From assembly GCA_903932685.1 (NCBI GenBank), contig CAIZGX010000049.1, forward strand, positions 1 to 45,264: a stretch of DNA of 45,264 bases, written 5' to 3'. A program made the position numbers and the translations under genes. The stretch's first letter is position 1; each line of letters begins with the position of its first letter. Below, piece by piece: positions 11,250 through 45,264 of this stretch. The notes beneath the pieces are model-generated. The model was given only the letters and a program-made list of their open reading frames with translations. It had not been told where the DNA came from and searched no databases. The stretch is from an uncultured Bacteroidota bacterium. Lineage in GTDB: Bacteria; Bacteroidota; Bacteroidia; Flavobacteriales_D; Sanyastnellaceae.

Positions 11250-12089
11250 ATGAGATTAAACCTAGCGCTAATGGCGTTCCTATTTTGTGTAATCGCCTTT
11301 ACCTCTTGCTCGATTGAAAAACGCATCTATGAAAAAGGATATCATATTTCATGGCTGCATCCAAAACCGATGAACCCTCTGGCAGATGTTTCACAAGGTT
11401 GTTCCAAAGGTGCTTCGCAAGACCTTCCGCAGGACCTTTCGAAGAATCTTGAAACAGATGTTTCACAAGACCTTTCAGAGAATCTTGAAACAGATGTTTC
11501 ACAAGACCTTTCGGAGAATCTTTCGAAGAATTTAGAATTTAATACGCCTTCAGACACCATTACGCCAACGACTAAAGAAGACGATTACTTCGGACAAAAA
11601 GAAACCAACTTACCAAATGAAAACAAAGAAGCGTTCTTTGGTCCCCCGATAAGAAAACCAAAAACGGTAGAACAACTTAAAAAAGCAATTGGAAGAGACT
11701 TCAAGCTCGTTTTAATTGCTATGATTCTCGGCGGTATTTCGGGCGGATTACTCGCCCTCATCGGACAGTCAGCTACCGGAGTTAGCGACGGATACGTTTT
11801 CCTAATGATTCTGTTCTTTTTGTCAATAGCCGGATTCATATTCTACCTCGTTCGAGGTTTACTCCGAATTTTAAAATTAACAGTGCTAAAAATATTCGGA
11901 AAGAAAGACGACGCCCCAATTAACAGAAGAGAAAAAAAACATCGCTTGAGAGAGTCTGAACATCAATACCTCAGAAGATTCGGACTGTGGTTTGGACAAA
12001 ATTTGTTCAGTCCGATAGGACGATTGAAAATTCTCGGACTGCTGCTGCTAATTGCGATTCCACTGCTCGTGATTTTCAATCCGCATTAA
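11250..12089 (+). CDS. multi-pass lipoprotein with repeat linker, GYH-motif paralogue B
   Basis: Function unknown. The 279-residue product has a lipoprotein signal peptide (lipobox FTSC, Cys at residue 20) followed by the family motif CSIEKRIYEKGYHISWLHPK. Residues about 46-93 are a linker encoded by twelve 12-bp units and reading as ASQD/DLSENLETDVSQ repeats; it is polar, acidic and probably disordered. A second acidic stretch precedes three likely membrane helices (about 152-172, 180-200 and 257-276). The 3' end overlaps the opposing GH3 gene by 4 bp. The linker differs in length and sequence from the paralogues while the motif and the membrane part remain, so the repeat looks inserted or expanded in frame. 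Confidence 0.8.
   Translation: MRLNLALMAFLFCVIAFTSCSIEKRIYEKGYHISWLHPKPMNPLADVSQGCSKGASQDLPQDLSKNLETDVSQDLSENLETDVSQDLSENLSKNLEFNTPSDTITPTTKEDDYFGQKETNLPNENKEAFFGPPIRKPKTVEQLKKAIGRDFKLVLIAMILGGISGGLLALIGQSATGVSDGYVFLMILFFLSIAGFIFYLVRGLLRILKLTVLKIFGKKDDAPINRREKKHRLRESEHQYLRRFGLWFGQNLFSPIGRLKILGLLLLIAIPLLVIFNPH
11386..11529 (+). repeat. 12-bp tandem repeat tract 2 (in coding linker)
   Basis: Twelve units of exactly 12 bp with no indel, such as ATGTTTCACAAG (11386, 11458, 11494), ATCTTGAAACAG (11446, 11482) and ACCTTTCGAAGA (11434). Part is organised as a 36-bp higher-order unit present about twice. It shares 43 bp with one mismatch with tract 1 and the same 36-bp unit with tract 5. Confidence 0.93.
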
Positions 12090-15383: not shown

Positions 15384-15557
15384 GTTCTGCGAAAGGTCAG
15401 TTGCAAGGTGCGGTGCAAGTTGTTTCACAAGGTGCTTTGCAAGGACGCTTCGCGTAGCGACCTTCCAACGGACCTTTCGAAGAACCTTTCGAAGAACCTT
15501 GTGAAACACCTTGTAATTACACCTTGTGCAACACCTTGCAACTGCACCTTGTAAAAC
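15384..15557. repeat. 12-bp tandem repeat tract 3 (intergenic, inverted symmetry)
   Basis: About fourteen units with three small indels, such as GTGCTTTGCAAG (15432), ACCTTTCGAAGA (15472 and 15484) and ACCTTGTGAAAC (15496), fill the gap between the xseB stop and the DsbA-family start. The left half and right half are in opposite orientation: CAGTTGCAAGGTG (15398-15410) is inverted at 15532-15544 and TGTTTCACAAGG (15421-15432) at 15497-15508, correctly nested, so the tract can fold into one long hairpin. No credible gene is encoded in it. Confidence 0.9.
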
Positions 15558-15559
15558 AC

Positions 15560-22928: not shown

Positions 22929-23264
22929 TTAGTAAAGCAACTGCTTCTTAGAAGCATTCTTCCATCCTGCTTTGTACTCTGCATCGACGAAATAGATTTT
23001 CAAATCAGCTTTGTACTCGGCATCTTCAAAATATATTTTCTTATTCGCTTTGTATTCGGCATCTACGAAAAACCAACGACCATCGTTGTTGCCAGCTTTG
23101 TATTCTGCATTCTCTTTATAGACCAACAAATCTGCCTTGTACTCCGCGTCTACCACATAAACCTTCACCTGCGCTTTGTATTCAGCATCTACTGAATAAA
23201 TCTTTTGAGCACTTGCACTCATTCCAAACACGCACAATGCAAAAAGTAGAACGATCGATTTCAT
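22929..23264 (-). CDS. secreted 7(1) septoil-knot-like repeat protein
   Basis: A 111-residue protein with a Sec signal peptide (MKSIVLLFALCVFGMSASAQ) followed by six copies of a short repeat of the form K-[IV]-[YF]-x-[VE]-[DN]-A-E-Y-K-A, broken once by GNNDGRWFF before the fourth copy, and ending GW. This pattern matches my memory of the small DUF6150/septoil-knot family, whose members fold into a 7(1) knotted beta structure; the assignment is from motif recall and was not searched. Function is unknown. The ATG at 23264 gives the signal peptide; a longer open frame to 23480 runs through repeat tract 4 and is rejected. It may share a transcript with the transporter 8 bp downstream. Confidence 0.75.
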   Translation of the reverse strand: MKSIVLLFALCVFGMSASAQKIYSVDAEYKAQVKVYVVDAEYKADLLVYKENAEYKAGNNDGRWFFVDAEYKANKKIYFEDAEYKADLKIYFVDAEYKAGWKNASKKQLLY

Positions 23265-23296
23265 AAGTGTGTTTATTGTTTCAACGAAGATAAACA

Positions 23297-23476
23297 ATGC
23301 TTTGCAAGATTCTACGAAAGATGCTTCGCAAGACGCTTCGGGAGATGTTGCACAAGACCCTACACAAGACGCCTCGCGAGACCTTTCGAAGAATCTTACG
23401 AAGTATCTTGTAACACATCTTTCGTAGAATCTTGCAAAGCATCTTTCGCAGAATCTTACAAAGTATCTTTCGAAGA
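23297..23476. repeat. 12-bp tandem repeat tract 4 (15 exact units, intergenic)
   Basis: Fifteen units of exactly 12 bp, 180 bp in all, with no indel. Left units are of type ATGCTTCGCAAG; right units are of the inverse type, such as ATCTTGCAAAGC and ATCTTTCGAAGA. A perfect 27-bp inverted repeat links 23297-23323 to 23416-23442. The tract fills almost all of the space between the divergent septoil-knot gene (start 23264) and rlmD (start 23492), so promoters of both genes must lie inside or at its edges. Confidence 0.95.
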
Positions 23477-23479
23477 ACA

Positions 23480-23487
23480 TATATTTG
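23480..23487 (+). promoter_or_regulatory. -7 element of rlmD, 4 nt before the start codon
   Basis: TATATTTG is a perfect TAnnTTTG, begins 3 bp after repeat tract 4 and is followed by CCCC and then the GTG at 23492. Transcription would start at or next to the start codon. The -33 position falls inside the last repeat units and has no TTG. Confidence 0.6.
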
Positions 23488-23491
23488 CCCC

Positions 23492-24913
23492 GTGCTAAAA
23501 AAGAATCAAATACTCGATATTAAAATAGACCGCTTTGCCTTCGGAGGCAATGGCATTGGACTATTGAAAACCGACAAAGGCGATTTTACCGTTTTTGTTG
23601 AAAACACCTTCCCTGGACAACTCGTTCGCGCGCAGGTGATAAAGCCCGACAAACGATTTGCGAATTGCAAATTAGTTGAAGTCTTAGAGAACTCTCCCGA
23701 TGAAATAGACTTGCCTCACCAACGCATTCCTGGCGCACCTTACGCCGCATGGCCCATAGAGAAGCAGCACGAAGCGAAAAAGGATTCTTGTCTTCAACTC
23801 TACAAACGCATTGGGAAAATTGAGAACATAGACGAACTCTTCGACGAATACATCGACTCTCCTTCCGTTTGGAACTACCGAAACAAAATGGAATATAGCT
23901 TCAGTGCTATACGCTACGACCTTCCAACCAAAACTGAACTCGATGATTTCGGTCTAGGCTTCAAGCACAGAGGCACTTGGTGGATGGTTGAAAATCTAGA
24001 TGCTGAATCAGGTCTCTTCGATGCGACATTTGAAAATAACCTGCATCGCATTCGCACCTTCTGCATAAACAGCGGACTTCCTGCCTGGCATCCACCCAAG
24101 CGCGAAGGTTTCTTCAGATACGTTGTGGTTCGAAAATCATTCACCCATGACCTTCTTCTGATTAACCTAGTTACTTCTTCGGTTGGACTAGAGCAGTTCG
24201 ATCGCAATGGATTTGTCAAACTCGTTTTAGACATTTTAGGTGATCGCTGTGGTGGAATTATTCATACACTAAATGACGATACGGGAGACCGTGCTGAACC
24301 TCTAAACGGATCTTCGCATCTACTGTTCGGGAATTCAGAAATTGAAGAAATTCTATTGGGATTGAAGTTCAAAGTAAACATGAAGAGCTTCTTTCAAACC
24401 AATCCGAAAAGCGCTGAAAGACTCTATACAAAAGCAATAGATTACTGCAATCCGGCTGAAGTTCCAGATGGATATATTCTCGATCTGTTTTGTGGAACAG
24501 GAACTATAGGACAACTCATTGCGCAAAAAACGTCCCTACCGGTTGTAGGTGTTGATATTGTGGAAACGGCTATTGCAGACGCTAAGGAAAATGCAAAAGA
24601 AAACAATGTTTCTAACGTTGAATTCTTCGCTGCAGATGTAGGAAAATTCTTGTTGGAACAACCGCAATTTCAAAATCAAATCAATACGTTGGTGCTTGAT
24701 CCTCCACGTGGAGGTATTTCTCCGAAGACATTACGAAAAGTAATTGGACTTGATGCGAAGCGCATCGTTTACATTTCATGCAACCCTTCTACACAAGCAA
24801 GAGATTGTGAGACACTTATACTTTCAGGATATAATTTGAAGAAAATTAGTTTCGTCGATCAGTTTCCACACACCTCTCACTTAGAGGCGGTGGCTCTGTT
24901 TGAAAAAATTTAA
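23492..24913 (+). CDS. rlmD: 23S rRNA (uracil-5-)-methyltransferase RlmD/TrmA family
   Basis: A 473-residue SAM-dependent RNA m5U methyltransferase. An N-terminal TRAM domain (about 5-60) is followed by a central region and a Rossmann methyltransferase domain with DLFCGTGTIGQLIA (SAM site), VLDPPRGG and YISCNPSTQARD, which holds the catalytic Cys. The iron-sulfur Cys cluster of enterobacterial RlmD is absent: the matching region reads GAPYAAWPIEKQHEAK. The RlmD or RlmCD name is therefore by family, and the target uridine is not certain. The GTG at 23492 is the best start; upstream in-frame codons lie in the repeat tract. The 3' end overlaps ftsA by 4 bp on opposite strands. Confidence 0.88.
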   Translation: MLKKNQILDIKIDRFAFGGNGIGLLKTDKGDFTVFVENTFPGQLVRAQVIKPDKRFANCKLVEVLENSPDEIDLPHQRIPGAPYAAWPIEKQHEAKKDSCLQLYKRIGKIENIDELFDEYIDSPSVWNYRNKMEYSFSAIRYDLPTKTELDDFGLGFKHRGTWWMVENLDAESGLFDATFENNLHRIRTFCINSGLPAWHPPKREGFFRYVVVRKSFTHDLLLINLVTSSVGLEQFDRNGFVKLVLDILGDRCGGIIHTLNDDTGDRAEPLNGSSHLLFGNSEIEEILLGLKFKVNMKSFFQTNPKSAERLYTKAIDYCNPAEVPDGYILDLFCGTGTIGQLIAQKTSLPVVGVDIVETAIADAKENAKENNVSNVEFFAADVGKFLLEQPQFQNQINTLVLDPPRGGISPKTLRKVIGLDAKRIVYISCNPSTQARDCETLILSGYNLKKISFVDQFPHTSHLEAVALFEKI

Positions 24914-40964: not shown

Positions 40965-42004
40965 AAATTCGGTTTGTATGCTTGTAATATTTTCTGCGCG
41001 TTGTCTTCTTTCATTAATCGATCAACGGTAATCTCCGGATGTTTTTCCATATAACTCTTCACCATTTGAAAACCCATAAACACCCCCAACTGCGGAGCGC
41101 TTTCTTGAGGAACATTCTCTGCATTGGTAAATGGAGCATATTCAAACCACTTCTGCACCTCTACTCTATTCTTAGAAAAGAGCACCTCTTGTCTGGCAAT
41201 TTCCTTCCACACATTCAACTGATGCCCCTGTGTCCACGTGTATTCCTTTGAAGTCCATGCCATGAGTGTTGAGTCTTGAATTTCTTCAAACGCTAACCAG
41301 GTGAGGTAGTGTGCCTTCCCATGAAAGATCATTTCTGAGAGCATATCATTTTCATGTTGAAGGGTATCTGACTTCAACAAATAATAATAAGCTAAATTCT
41401 TAATTGCATTAGGCACAAGCTGAGCGCGAGTCATATCGTCCTTCTGGTATTGCGGAAAAGGAACCGACTTCGTGATTCTATTTTCGTTTCCTAAATAAAA
41501 ATCCAATCCAACGGCTAAGTATTCATCTGTGCTGTAGGCACCGATATTGAATCCTGAATTCATCCAAATCAACTGAGGAGGTTTCATATTCGGAATCAAC
41601 GTTTGCATGCGAAGAGCAGCTTCCAATATTTTTTCATGAAGGGAATCGAGACGTTCTTGCGGATAGTTCTTTTCAATTTCTGATTTCAAATCTCGAAAAT
41701 CGGGATGACTTACAAACCCCTGAACCATTTGAACCGTTGATAGGCTGTCGCATGGCCCGGCGTTTAGTATGCGCTCGAGATAGAGGCAGAAAAACTTCCC
41801 GTATTTCGTTTTTAATTCAGAAATATTCTGAGAGTTTTTCCAATCGGCAATGAAAAAGTCTTGATCAAACCTCAGAGGATTCAACGATTTACCTTCAACT
41901 TCCACATCAATATCTTTGTGCTTGTCTGCCTCTCCGCAGGAGTAACAGAGGATTGTCAACAAAATTGACAATACAGCAAGGTAGGAATTCGTTAGCTTTG
42001 GCAT
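40961..42004 (-). CDS. gldB: gliding motility lipoprotein GldB
   Basis: A 347-residue lipoprotein with signal peptide LAVLSILLTILCYSC (lipobox Cys about residue 23) and the GldB-type body: LRFDQDFFIADW, FCLYLERILNAGP, a domain with PPQLIWMNSGFNIGAYSTDEYLAVGLDFYLG, and a C terminus with NVPQESAPQLGVFMGFQMVKSYMEKHPE. GldB is required for gliding in Flavobacterium. The ATG at 42004 is chosen over a TTG four codons upstream. GACTTTTG (minus strand, 42021-42014), one base off the -7 consensus, lies 9 nt before the ATG. Confidence 0.9.
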   Translation of the reverse strand: MPKLTNSYLAVLSILLTILCYSCGEADKHKDIDVEVEGKSLNPLRFDQDFFIADWKNSQNISELKTKYGKFFCLYLERILNAGPCDSLSTVQMVQGFVSHPDFRDLKSEIEKNYPQERLDSLHEKILEAALRMQTLIPNMKPPQLIWMNSGFNIGAYSTDEYLAVGLDFYLGNENRITKSVPFPQYQKDDMTRAQLVPNAIKNLAYYYLLKSDTLQHENDMLSEMIFHGKAHYLTWLAFEEIQDSTLMAWTSKEYTWTQGHQLNVWKEIARQEVLFSKNRVEVQKWFEYAPFTNAENVPQESAPQLGVFMGFQMVKSYMEKHPEITVDRLMKEDNAQKILQAYKPNL

Positions 42005-42039: not shown

Positions 42040-42861
42040 ATGAAAAAAATAAACACCTTAATTCTGTTCTGCACATTGACAATGATGTCTTTTGCGCAGG
42101 CGACTGCAACAACCAACAAGTTTCGTTTGGGCTTTAAAGTCTCTCCAAATATTTCTTGGCTGGCAAGTGATAACAGCAATATGACTGTTGGCGACAAATC
42201 TCTTCAATTTGGATATGGTTTGAACTTCGATATTTTCTTCGCGGAAAATTATGCAATAGGTACCGGCTTCAACATCAACAATACCGGTGGTAAATATTCA
42301 TACTTCGCAGAATACACGGGGGATGATATTGATGCTGTTGGAAATGTAGTAACGAATATGAAGCAGGTAGGATTAATTAGTAGAGATCTTCGACTTCAAT
42401 ATTTGCAAATTCCGTTGACCTTCAAAATGAAAACCAATGAGATTGGCTACCTAACCTATTGGGGACAATTCGGGTTGGGTTTAAACATGAATCTTAAGGC
42501 TCTCAGCGATGACAACATTGATTACTTGTATTACCAAAACAAAAACACCTTCGCATGGGAAAAATCAAACCGAGAGACATCAACAATAAGCTCGAACGAT
42601 ATTAAAAATGAAGTAAATATCTTTTCTGCCAATTTAATGTTCGCTGCAGGTGTTGAATATAACCTATCTGGAAATACAAGCATCTTGGCAGGACTTACTT
42701 TCCAAAACGGTTTTACCGATGCGTTAAAAGGAAATGGCGTAGTGAAGGATCAAAGCACGAACTCGCCCACATTTAATGGAGGTGCTGCGAACACCCCTAA
42801 AACCTTCGAGTTATCCGGACTCCCGAATTACATTGAATTGAACATCGGCATTTTATTCTAA
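42040..42861 (+). CDS. outer membrane beta-barrel protein (porin-family type)
   Basis: A 273-residue exported protein with a Sec signal peptide (ends MMSFAQA) and alternating beta strands typical of the 8-stranded OMP_b-brl family: FRLGFKVSPNISWLASDN, FGYGLNFDIFFAENYAIGTGFNINNTGG, GYLTYWGQFGLGLNMNL, and a final strand with PNYIELNIGILF, where the terminal Phe is the barrel-assembly signal. Function is unknown; such small barrels are common in Bacteroidota. It is divergent from gldB and ends in a terminator hairpin that also serves the next start region. Confidence 0.85.
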   Translation: MKKINTLILFCTLTMMSFAQATATTNKFRLGFKVSPNISWLASDNSNMTVGDKSLQFGYGLNFDIFFAENYAIGTGFNINNTGGKYSYFAEYTGDDIDAVGNVVTNMKQVGLISRDLRLQYLQIPLTFKMKTNEIGYLTYWGQFGLGLNMNLKALSDDNIDYLYYQNKNTFAWEKSNRETSTISSNDIKNEVNIFSANLMFAAGVEYNLSGNTSILAGLTFQNGFTDALKGNGVVKDQSTNSPTFNGGAANTPKTFELSGLPNYIELNIGILF

Positions 42862-44499: not shown

Positions 44500-45174
44500 T
44501 CACAAATAGTGAAAGACAACTGCTATTGCTAAAATTGTAGCGATAGCCACTATCAAACCTCGTGTAATAAATGAAGAGAATGGCAGTAAATAAGCCACTG
44601 CCATCAGCAATAAAGCTATCCAGAAATTTTTGCTAAATCCTTCCAACAAGAAAATGGTTAGTGCTGGTAAGAACAGAGCTAATACGATTAGAAGAATGAG
44701 TTCCAAGTCTGAATCAATAGATTGACCCGTACCCTGTGAAACAAAGGTTTCAAGATTCTCCGAAAGGTCTTGTGAAACGACTGTTTCAAGATTCTCCGAA
44801 AGGTCCTGCGGAAGGTCTTGCGAAGAATTTTGCGAAGCACCTTCGGAACGACCTTGCTCAGCATCTTGAAAAACACCTTCGGAACGACCTTGTGAAACAT
44901 CTTGAAAAACACCTTCGGAACGACCTTGTGAAACATCTATTTCAAGATTCTCCGAAAGTTCCTGAGAAACATCCGTTTCAAGATTCTCCGAAAGATCTTG
45001 CGAAGCATCTCGCTCCGCGTCTTGTGCAACATCTCGCGAAGCGTCTTGCTCCGCATCCTGCTTCGCATAATGATTCCACTCAATATGATACCCCGGTTGG
45101 TATACGCGCTTTTCTACCGAACACGAAGCCAAGGCAAGAAGGGCAAATACGAGGACAATCCAATTTTTATTCAT
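44500..45174 (-). CDS. multi-pass lipoprotein with repeat linker, GYH-motif paralogue D
   Basis: Function unknown. The 224-residue product has a lipoprotein signal peptide with lipobox LASC (Cys about residue 18) and the shared motif CSVEKRVYQPGYHIEWNHYAK. Residues about 37-148 are encoded by 28 copies of the 12-bp unit and read as ASQDLSENLETDVSQ and VSQGRSEGVFQD repeats. The C-terminal 65 residues hold three to four hydrophobic helices; LIVLALFLPALTIFLLEGFS followed by NFWIALLLM resembles the Pmp3/YqaE membrane family. Half of the protein is repeat-encoded linker. The gene is convergent with the SDR gene. Confidence 0.8.
   Translation of the reverse strand: MNKNWIVLVFALLALASCSVEKRVYQPGYHIEWNHYAKQDAEQDASRDVAQDAERDASQDLSENLETDVSQELSENLEIDVSQGRSEGVFQDVSQGRSEGVFQDAEQGRSEGASQNSSQDLPQDLSENLETVVSQDLSENLETFVSQGTGQSIDSDLELILLIVLALFLPALTIFLLEGFSKNFWIALLLMAVAYLLPFSSFITRGLIVAIATILAIAVVFHYL
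44731..45066 (-). repeat. 12-bp tandem repeat tract 5 (in coding linker)
   Basis: Twenty-eight units of exactly 12 bp (336 bp) with no indel, reading on the plus strand for example ATTCTCCGAAAG (44755, 44791, 44947, 44983), GTCTTGTGAAAC (44767) and ACCTTCGGAACG (44839, 44875, 44911). Two higher-order 36-bp units are visible, one shared with tract 2 and one private. It is the longest tract in the window. Confidence 0.95.
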
Positions 45175-45232
45175 AATTAAATTTTTATTTATTGGTCGAA
45201 TGTAAGTCTTTACTCAGGCCATAGGCAAAAGA

Positions 45233-45258
45233 AGAGGGTTGACTTTCGTCAACCCTCT
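45233..45258. terminator. terminator-like hairpin at the right edge
   Basis: AGAGGGTTGAC (45233-45243) pairs with GTCAACCCTCT (45248-45258) around TTTC. T-rich sequence on the minus strand side (TTCTTTTG) suggests it ends a minus-strand gene lying right of the window, or works in both directions. Confidence 0.65.
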
Positions 45259-45264
45259 CTTTAC

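Follow-up and report, generated by a model that had tools for sequence, protein, structure and literature searches.

A dispersed family of palindromic repeats with potential 12-nt mini-hairpin units in one Flavobacteriales genus, whose stems are probably kept by the copying of the repeat itself

The window analyzed here is the whole 45,264-nt stretch of a contig from an uncultured Bacteroidota bacterium. Between a minus-strand gene for a small protein and the plus-strand gene rlmD, it contains a 182-nt tract of related 12-mers (23297–23478). Five arrays of such units in the window pass the array filter, the rlmD tract included. The features are as follows.

1–135, no strand: array of the same family at the contig start
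11386–11531, no strand: array in frame inside the ORF 11250–12089
15384–15559, no strand: array between a DSBA-domain gene and xseA, its minus and plus units being separated by the 18-bp palindromic hub GACGCTTCGCGTAGCGAC
22929–23264, minus strand: small protein matching Pfam DUF6150 (PF19647), with a signal-peptide-like N-terminus (by eye)
23285–23292, minus strand: TATCTTCG, probable -7-like motif of the minus-strand gene
23297–23380, minus strand: left arm of seven 12-nt units, the GNA-loop strand being the minus strand
23297–23323, plus strand: left copy of a 27-bp perfect inverted repeat
23381–23382, no strand: 2-bp hinge AC at the orientation switch
23383–23478, plus strand: right arm of eight 12-nt units CTT-X-Y-GNA-Y'-X'-A[T/C], both inner stem pairs intact in 8/8 (by eye)
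23416–23442, plus strand: right copy of the 27-bp inverted repeat, the reverse complement of the left copy
23480–23487, plus strand: TATATTTG, -7-like motif (TAnnTTTG) of rlmD
23492–24913, plus strand: rlmD, 23S rRNA (uracil-1939-C5)-methyltransferase, with a GTG start (TIGR00479, 243.3 bits against a cut-off of 183.55)
44755–45032, no strand: array of the same family near the contig end

The tract consists of 15 units, seven on the minus strand and, after the AC hinge, eight on the plus strand. The switch of orientation and the 27-bp inverted repeat had been recognized in the initial annotation, and both were confirmed, the repeat being exact over its whole length. The same annotation counted fifteen perfect 12-mers; the number and the unit length are correct, but 13 distinct sequences are seen among the 15 units when they are read by eye on the GNA strand. 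The end of the tract lies two bases further than position 23476, at 23478. The distance of 32 bp to the start of the minus-strand gene (23264) is right, while that to the GTG of rlmD is 13 bp from the true end and not 15 bp. The name "septoil-knot", given to the gene at 22929–23264 in the initial annotation, was returned by no search, the Pfam match being DUF6150. This gene encodes VDAEYKA-type repeats and has its own period-39 DNA repeats. Scanned against Rfam at gathering scores, the window shows two tRNAs only, and no known RNA family at the tract.

The unit consensus is CTT-X-Y-GNA-Y'-X'-A-[T/C], where X and X' are positions 4 and 10, and Y and Y' are positions 5 and 9. Within the rlmD tract, 13 of the 15 units are paired at X-X' and 14 at Y-Y' (by eye). 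For the covariation analysis, units were located by seven conserved positions only, the inner stem letters were never used, and identical runs were collapsed. The sample comprises 901 units, of which 204 are distinct, and was drawn from stretches fetched from seven related MAGs and from the genome to which the window belongs (G000), whose arrays were fetched only in part. X-X' is a Watson-Crick pair in 835 of the 901 units (mean of 500 shuffles 326.7, maximum 362) and Y-Y' in 826 (mean 486.4, maximum 523); orthologous arrays recur in these counts, and hence the units are not independent. When distinct units alone are counted, X-X' is paired in 155/204 and Y-Y' in 152/204 (shuffle maxima 88 and 113). 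None of the ten non-partner column pairs of the 901 units exceeds its shuffle maximum. The outer pair 3-11, the letters of which were used to locate the units, is slightly above the shuffle range (877 against a maximum of 866); it is T-A almost throughout, with C-G in eight cells. The inner pairs are both intact in 791 units, while 79 units have one and 31 have none, and ten fully paired stem types are observed. Judged from its letters, each 12-mer can form a mini-hairpin, the stem letters varying while the pairing is kept.

The covariation is equal in coding and non-coding DNA. Units inside ORFs are paired at X-X' in 362/396 and at Y-Y' in 357/396 (shuffle maxima 178 and 249), and intergenic units in 467/490 and 459/490 (199 and 284). 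The data would fit a constraint that acts on the DNA and not on a single transcript, although they are no proof of it.

The loop is GNA in 673/901 units (GAA 349, GCA 185, GTA 109, GGA 30), and the closing pair 5-9 is C-G in 602/901. The stem types among the 791 fully paired units include GC (245) and CC (73), with two G-C pairs each, and CG (27). According to the available text of PMC4686876, a GNA loop with at least two G-C pairs makes unusually stable DNA, the Tm of GCGAAGC reaching up to 78 °C. For phage N4, the accessible part of PMC4496689 states that the 5' G and 3' A of the loop and the C-G closing pair are needed for hairpin extrusion, and that extrusion is seen at sub-physiological superhelical density. 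The whole combination of a GNA loop, a C-G closing pair and two G-C pairs is present in only part of the units analyzed here. At position 12 in the 901-unit loci, units with X'=G mostly end with C (122 vs. 14 with T), and those with X'=A or T mostly with T; for X'=C, T is found in 309 and C in 138.

The read loci, 97 in number, contain 133 arrays of 3 to 40 units. Stem pairing is scored in the parse behind the counts on 133 arrays (location, polarity and the arm match of 24 arrays); the analyses of polarity, of arm matching and of residue pairing were repeated without stem scoring. The arrays have an outward polarity. With the stem-weighted parse, 47 of the 133 are minus-then-plus, none is the reverse, 59 are single runs and 27 alternate, and with the stem-free parse the same loci give 157 clusters, of which 43 are minus-then-plus, one is plus-then-minus and 110 are single runs. 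These numbers, too, include orthologous arrays more than once. The gap from minus to plus units is 2 bp in 49/98 cases (AC 23, GT 17) and 18 bp in 17/98 with the stem-weighted parse, and 2 bp is also the commonest gap with the stem-free parse (21/47). From plus to minus units, the gap is 10 bp in 35/44. Most of the 18-bp hubs read GACGCTTCGCGTAGCGAC or its complement; the hub is itself palindromic, and is found in the window at 15444–15461. A palindromic seed inserted either way round would always give the outward polarity. On contig C4 of G000 (locus L010), two arrays (41079–41222 and 42197–42220), about 1 kb apart, are in opposite orientation and point outward.

Screening with a two-unit pattern (X and X' free, at most one mismatch) detected the family in eight of the nine genus genomes, the own genome included, and in none of the 51 other genomes of the family and order. 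From a collection of 84,980 species genomes, 91 matching stretches were obtained, and seven MAGs with the title Flavobacteriales bacterium or Chryseobacterium gleum account for 77 of them. The arrays are common to the MAGs titled Chryseobacterium gleum (L038, L039 and other CAMCUG/CAMCVP/CAMDFE records) and the genus genomes, and the title looks like a misassignment. Varied complementary stems were not seen by eye, with up to 20 units inspected each, in 11 of the 14 stretches from other taxa and in two viral-contig matches; these 14 stretches and two matches were left out of the array and covariation counts. Two gut Clostridia MAGs, RGIG5487 and RGIG1834 (L082, L099, L113, L119), have 12-bp arrays around CTTCCGAAGAAC, and the same varied complementary stems were not seen by eye in the first 20 units of L082 and L099.

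A looser two-unit pattern with at most one mismatch gave 124 matches against 7 for the reversed control in G000, and 99 against 5 in G004. It was used instead of a two-mismatch scan, in which the control matched 54 and 64 times. The most divergent genus member, G007, gave 7 against 2, near the values of array-less family members (9 vs. 6, 12 vs. 12 and 4 vs. 6). As far as searched, the family is restricted to one genus of Flavobacteriales. No earlier description of such a hairpin-unit family was found among the open-access papers listed, as judged from their titles and the first lines of their abstracts.

Arrays are frequently found inside genes. According to mechanically called ORFs, some of which may start upstream of the true start, 59 of the 133 arrays are inside ORFs. 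Among the 56 intergenic arrays with both neighbors called, 36 are between co-directional, 11 between convergent and 9 between divergent genes. Ten carrier proteins were submitted to Pfam; nine showed matches, one of them below the cut-off, and the tenth none. The matches are phosphoglucomutase, GH3/beta-lactamase, periplasmic binding (below the cut-off), glycosyltransferase 2, shikimate dehydrogenase, cyclase, GNAT, acetyl-CoA synthetase and dephospho-CoA kinase. The carrier ORF 11250–12089 of the window has no match in Pfam (0.01) or NCBIfam (0.001), and a similar ORF with a different array is present in L035.

In aroE, coaE and a glycosyltransferase gene, the insertions are in frame, and are present or absent at orthologous sites. 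In the AroE alignment, the insert is present in G001, G002, G004, G005 and G006, and absent from G000, G007 and seven relatives in the family and order, the record of G003 being partial and G008 giving no match. The unit strand at this site differs between G002/G006 and G001/G004/G005 (by eye). The CoaE alignment, made without G003 and G007, shows an in-frame insert in G002, G005, G006 and G008, which is absent from G000, G001 and G004. In the glycosyltransferase alignment, made without G002 and G007, the insert ranges from none in G001 up to 22 units in G006.

Inside ORFs, each unit encodes a repeat of four residues. With the stem-free parse, 277 of the 289 antisense ORF units are in one frame and encode [D/G]-x-x-[Q/K/E]. 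In 259 of these 277, a pair by class is formed by residues 2 and 4 (shuffle mean 119.0, maximum 143), the pairs being A-Q 101, S-K 65, V-Q 54, P-E 20, R-E 7, H-E 5 and a few others; the stem-weighted parse gives 272/284. This residue covariation is a shadow of the DNA stem.

The rlmD gene was found in seven of the nine genus genomes, and the contig of G002 stops short of the tract, so that six could be read. Five of them (G000, G001, G004, G005 and G006) have an array of 145–458 bp (parse) in the rlmD spacer with the same outward polarity, and in G007 a single intact unit is left in what is, by eye, a decayed remnant. Non-conservation of the symmetry in relatives had been proposed as a refutation; the outward polarity is conserved in 5/5 genomes with a readable intact array, an outcome that favors the initial annotation. 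Units and length turn over under this polarity, as the arrays of the locus differ in units and arm composition between genomes, and the relatives read do not retain the perfect 27-bp arms (by eye). Both genes are preceded by TAnnTTTG-type motifs, presumably the Bacteroidota-type -7 promoter motif. On the rlmD side, TATATTTG or TATCTTTG is present in 6/6 readable genus genomes, and on the other side TATCTTCG has the same spelling in 5/6 genomes, with TATATTCG in G007. The tract had been expected to overlap both promoters, which is only partly supported; the -7-like motifs lie just outside it, and the -33 regions could fall inside.

It is fairly likely that the rlmD tract is one member of a dispersed palindromic repeat family with 12-nt hairpin units, in which the stem is kept for the copying of the repeat itself and not for the host. 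The unit is a potential mini-hairpin with a 3-bp stem, a GNA or similar triloop and a YCT linker. An array would begin as a small palindromic seed, and units would be copied in tandem outward from the hinge or hub. The arms may grow by hairpin-assisted slippage or unequal exchange, with the hairpin needed for copying as single-stranded or extruded DNA, and the family may spread as the palindromic seed. Units that cannot pair would be copied less, so that stems would stay paired without host selection. The array at the rlmD locus is placed between two outward-facing promoters, where its growth would be tolerated, and this copy presumably has no dedicated regulatory role. An effect of absorbing supercoils by this copy is possible, as is a host role of the arrays at promoters. 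Mobility by a RAYT or a reverse transcriptase was considered and is not favored, as the search of the nine genus genomes (own included) for a consistent propagating enzyme revealed a Y1 transposase in four and RVT_1 in none; the genomes with no Y1 match are G003, which is 96% complete, and four others, several of these five being incomplete.

The same observations could be explained if the array is a structural promoter element, whose C(GNA)G units extrude under negative supercoiling and buffer it or shape promoter activity, the host keeping the stems. Negative supercoiling is expected to be strong between divergent promoters. Of the 60 gene sides that face outward from an array, 24 have TAnnTTTG no further than 60 bp from the array end, compared with 1.2 for mononucleotide shuffles; orthologous loci recur in this count. 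The arrays often abut promoters from upstream. The conserved place and polarity at the rlmD locus, where the array and the flanking -7-like motifs are kept in five genomes, would also fit a promoter-linked function together with these motifs. The loop rules are the same as those for the extrusion of N4 promoter hairpins, as given in the accessible part of PMC4496689. Against this explanation, 59 of the 133 arrays are inside ORFs, with equal covariation there; only 9 of 56 intergenic arrays are divergent, which is no evident excess by raw count; and G007 has only the decayed remnant at the rlmD locus. This explanation is considered rather unlikely. Control of both genes by one factor, as suggested in the initial annotation, is unsupported, with arrays also located between co-directional (36) and convergent (11) genes and in 59 ORFs. 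Free variation of the stem letters, as seen here, is not expected under a sequence-reading factor.

It is improbable that the units function as hairpins in transcripts, for mRNA stability, attenuation or the like. The whole tract folds well as RNA (z = -8.7), and units of co-directional intergenic arrays have the GNA loop more often in gene sense (189) than in antisense (95). Mismatches of ORF units on the GNA strand are C-A (23) more often than G-T (10), and C-A corresponds to G-U on the other strand. Nevertheless, there is no clear wobble signature, with G-T 20 and C-A 29 overall (10 and 23 in ORFs, 10 and 6 in intergenic DNA), and ORF mismatches that correspond to G-U number 19 on the mRNA strand against 14 on the other. 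In ORFs, most units have the GNA strand in antisense (286 vs. 110). At the rlmD locus, the -7-like motifs are outside the tract, and the tract would therefore be transcribed from neither promoter.

The remaining two explanations are both very improbable. The first, proposed in the initial annotation, is that the two arms form a long hairpin or cruciform and are kept for that fold. The 27-bp arms are exact, the outward polarity is conserved, and the fold of the 182-nt tract has z = -7.7 as DNA, with none of 200 shuffles as good either as DNA or as RNA. A high whole-tract score is, however, expected of any array of such units with an orientation switch. Standard nearest-neighbor folding counts against the unit hairpins of the preferred reading: the right arm alone has z = -0.71 (plus strand) and -0.06 (minus strand), with the unit hairpins unfavored, and the whole tract prefers the long hairpin. 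Folding parameters are suspected to under-rate GNA triloops. The matching of units between arms in the best register is not above shuffles. With the stem-weighted parse, the 24 two-armed arrays that have three or more units in each arm give 34 against 37.0 expected from shuffles (2 against 2.19 in the rlmD tract), and the stem-free parse gives 26 against 27.9 for 27 arrays (3 against 2.07 in the rlmD tract, identified by the order of output). The arms are of different unit types, clearly so in G006 and G004, and 59 of the 133 arrays have a single orientation. Selection for a long hairpin was rejected on the arm matching. The idea of a folded DNA element is borne out by the covariation at the scale of one 12-mer, and not as a long hairpin; the pairing is supported as local, within one 12-mer, rather than at the level of arms.

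The second is that a protein repeat with the [D/G]-x-x-[Q/K/E] linker is selected and the DNA pattern follows from the codons, which agrees with the single frame of 277/289 antisense ORF units, but intergenic units covary alike, X=A (TAA in the common frame) is rare in ORF units (2/396) and present in intergenic units (38/490), so that coding restricts units but does not make them, and to our knowledge nothing in such a peptide requires A or V with Q, S with K, or P with E.

The preferred reading, a repeat whose stems are kept by its own copying, can be compared with known systems. The available parts of PMC2229807, PMC10969869 and PMC2996958 describe Rickettsia palindromic elements (RPEs) and other protein-coding palindromes as selfish elements, located both in intergenic regions and in frame in conserved genes. 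Like RPEs and the Wolbachia protein-coding palindromes, the palindromic repeats of this family are both intergenic and in frame within conserved genes (59/133 in ORFs), and like RPEs they are present or absent at orthologous sites, as in the AroE, CoaE and glycosyltransferase alignments. The comparison with RPEs is by description and not by sequence. As far as the available descriptions go, RPEs are single elements of 105–146 or about 150 bp with long stems, in contrast to the tandem 12-nt units of variable number with a 3-bp stem. The long stem with terminal inverted repeats characteristic of RPEs is not seen, the arms of the family not being paired unit by unit. The hosts also differ, the family being found in a Flavobacteriales genus with a freshwater look, judged from MAG names alone.

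REPs of the GTAG and CGTC superfamilies are likewise short hairpins in many copies, with sub-families showing complementary stem changes and some copies in genes, according to the accessible text of PMC3733652. The same text gives REPs as 20–40 bp long with stems of 5–13 bp, a GTAG/CGTC end and often a nearby RAYT gene, whereas the unit consensus of this family has neither a GTAG nor a CGTC tag, and its 12-nt units are arrayed head to tail. By analogy, the family appears to work like RPEs, with stem sub-types like those of REP families, yet it is filed as neither, because both the long single palindrome and the tag are missing.

PARCELs (palindromic amphipathic repeat coding elements) are also tandem protein-coding repeats with DNA dyad symmetry; their unit is amphipathic, of 25 residues or 75 nt, often in membrane-targeted proteins, against a repeat of four residues here, and the features described in the available part of PMC2996958 do not include stem covariation within single 12-nt units. 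The mitochondrial palindromic microsatellites and double-hairpin elements of Fusarium and Allomyces are similar in being small optional palindromes argued to be mobile, and different in being intergenic and in organelle genomes, as far as the accessible portion of PMC7218506 describes them. The early-promoter hairpins of N4 and the d(GCGAAGC) mini-hairpins share the C(GNA)G loop rules with part of the units (available parts of PMC4496689 and PMC4686876), but these are described there as single polymerase-recognized hairpins or synthetic oligonucleotides, and not as a genomic repeat family.

A broader interpretation is that the copied thing is the fold and not the sequence, i.e., a selfish C(GNA)G-type 12-nt mini-hairpin that has gone through at least ten stem types and remained paired, spreads in a hairpin-dependent manner and, once inside genes, imposes covariation on proteins, residues 2 and 4 of each tetrapeptide covarying without any reason in the protein. 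This is offered as a tentative and somewhat doubtful extension. If true, the family would serve as a large natural experiment on very small DNA hairpins, on whether they form in bacterial cells and whether they matter there, with hundreds of units that carry complementary changes in their stems, both in coding and in non-coding DNA. It would also provide a system for the spread of protein-coding palindromes, with a tiny countable unit, relatives with and without copies, and the clear prediction that paired stems grow and broken stems do not. Methods that take covariation as a sign of protein contacts could be misled by such residue covariation, which derives from DNA.

Several contigs start or end in or near arrays. 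The window does so at position 1 and at 45032–45264, and the same is seen for contigs C11, C41, C64 and C68 of G000. The arrays of the family probably break the assembly.
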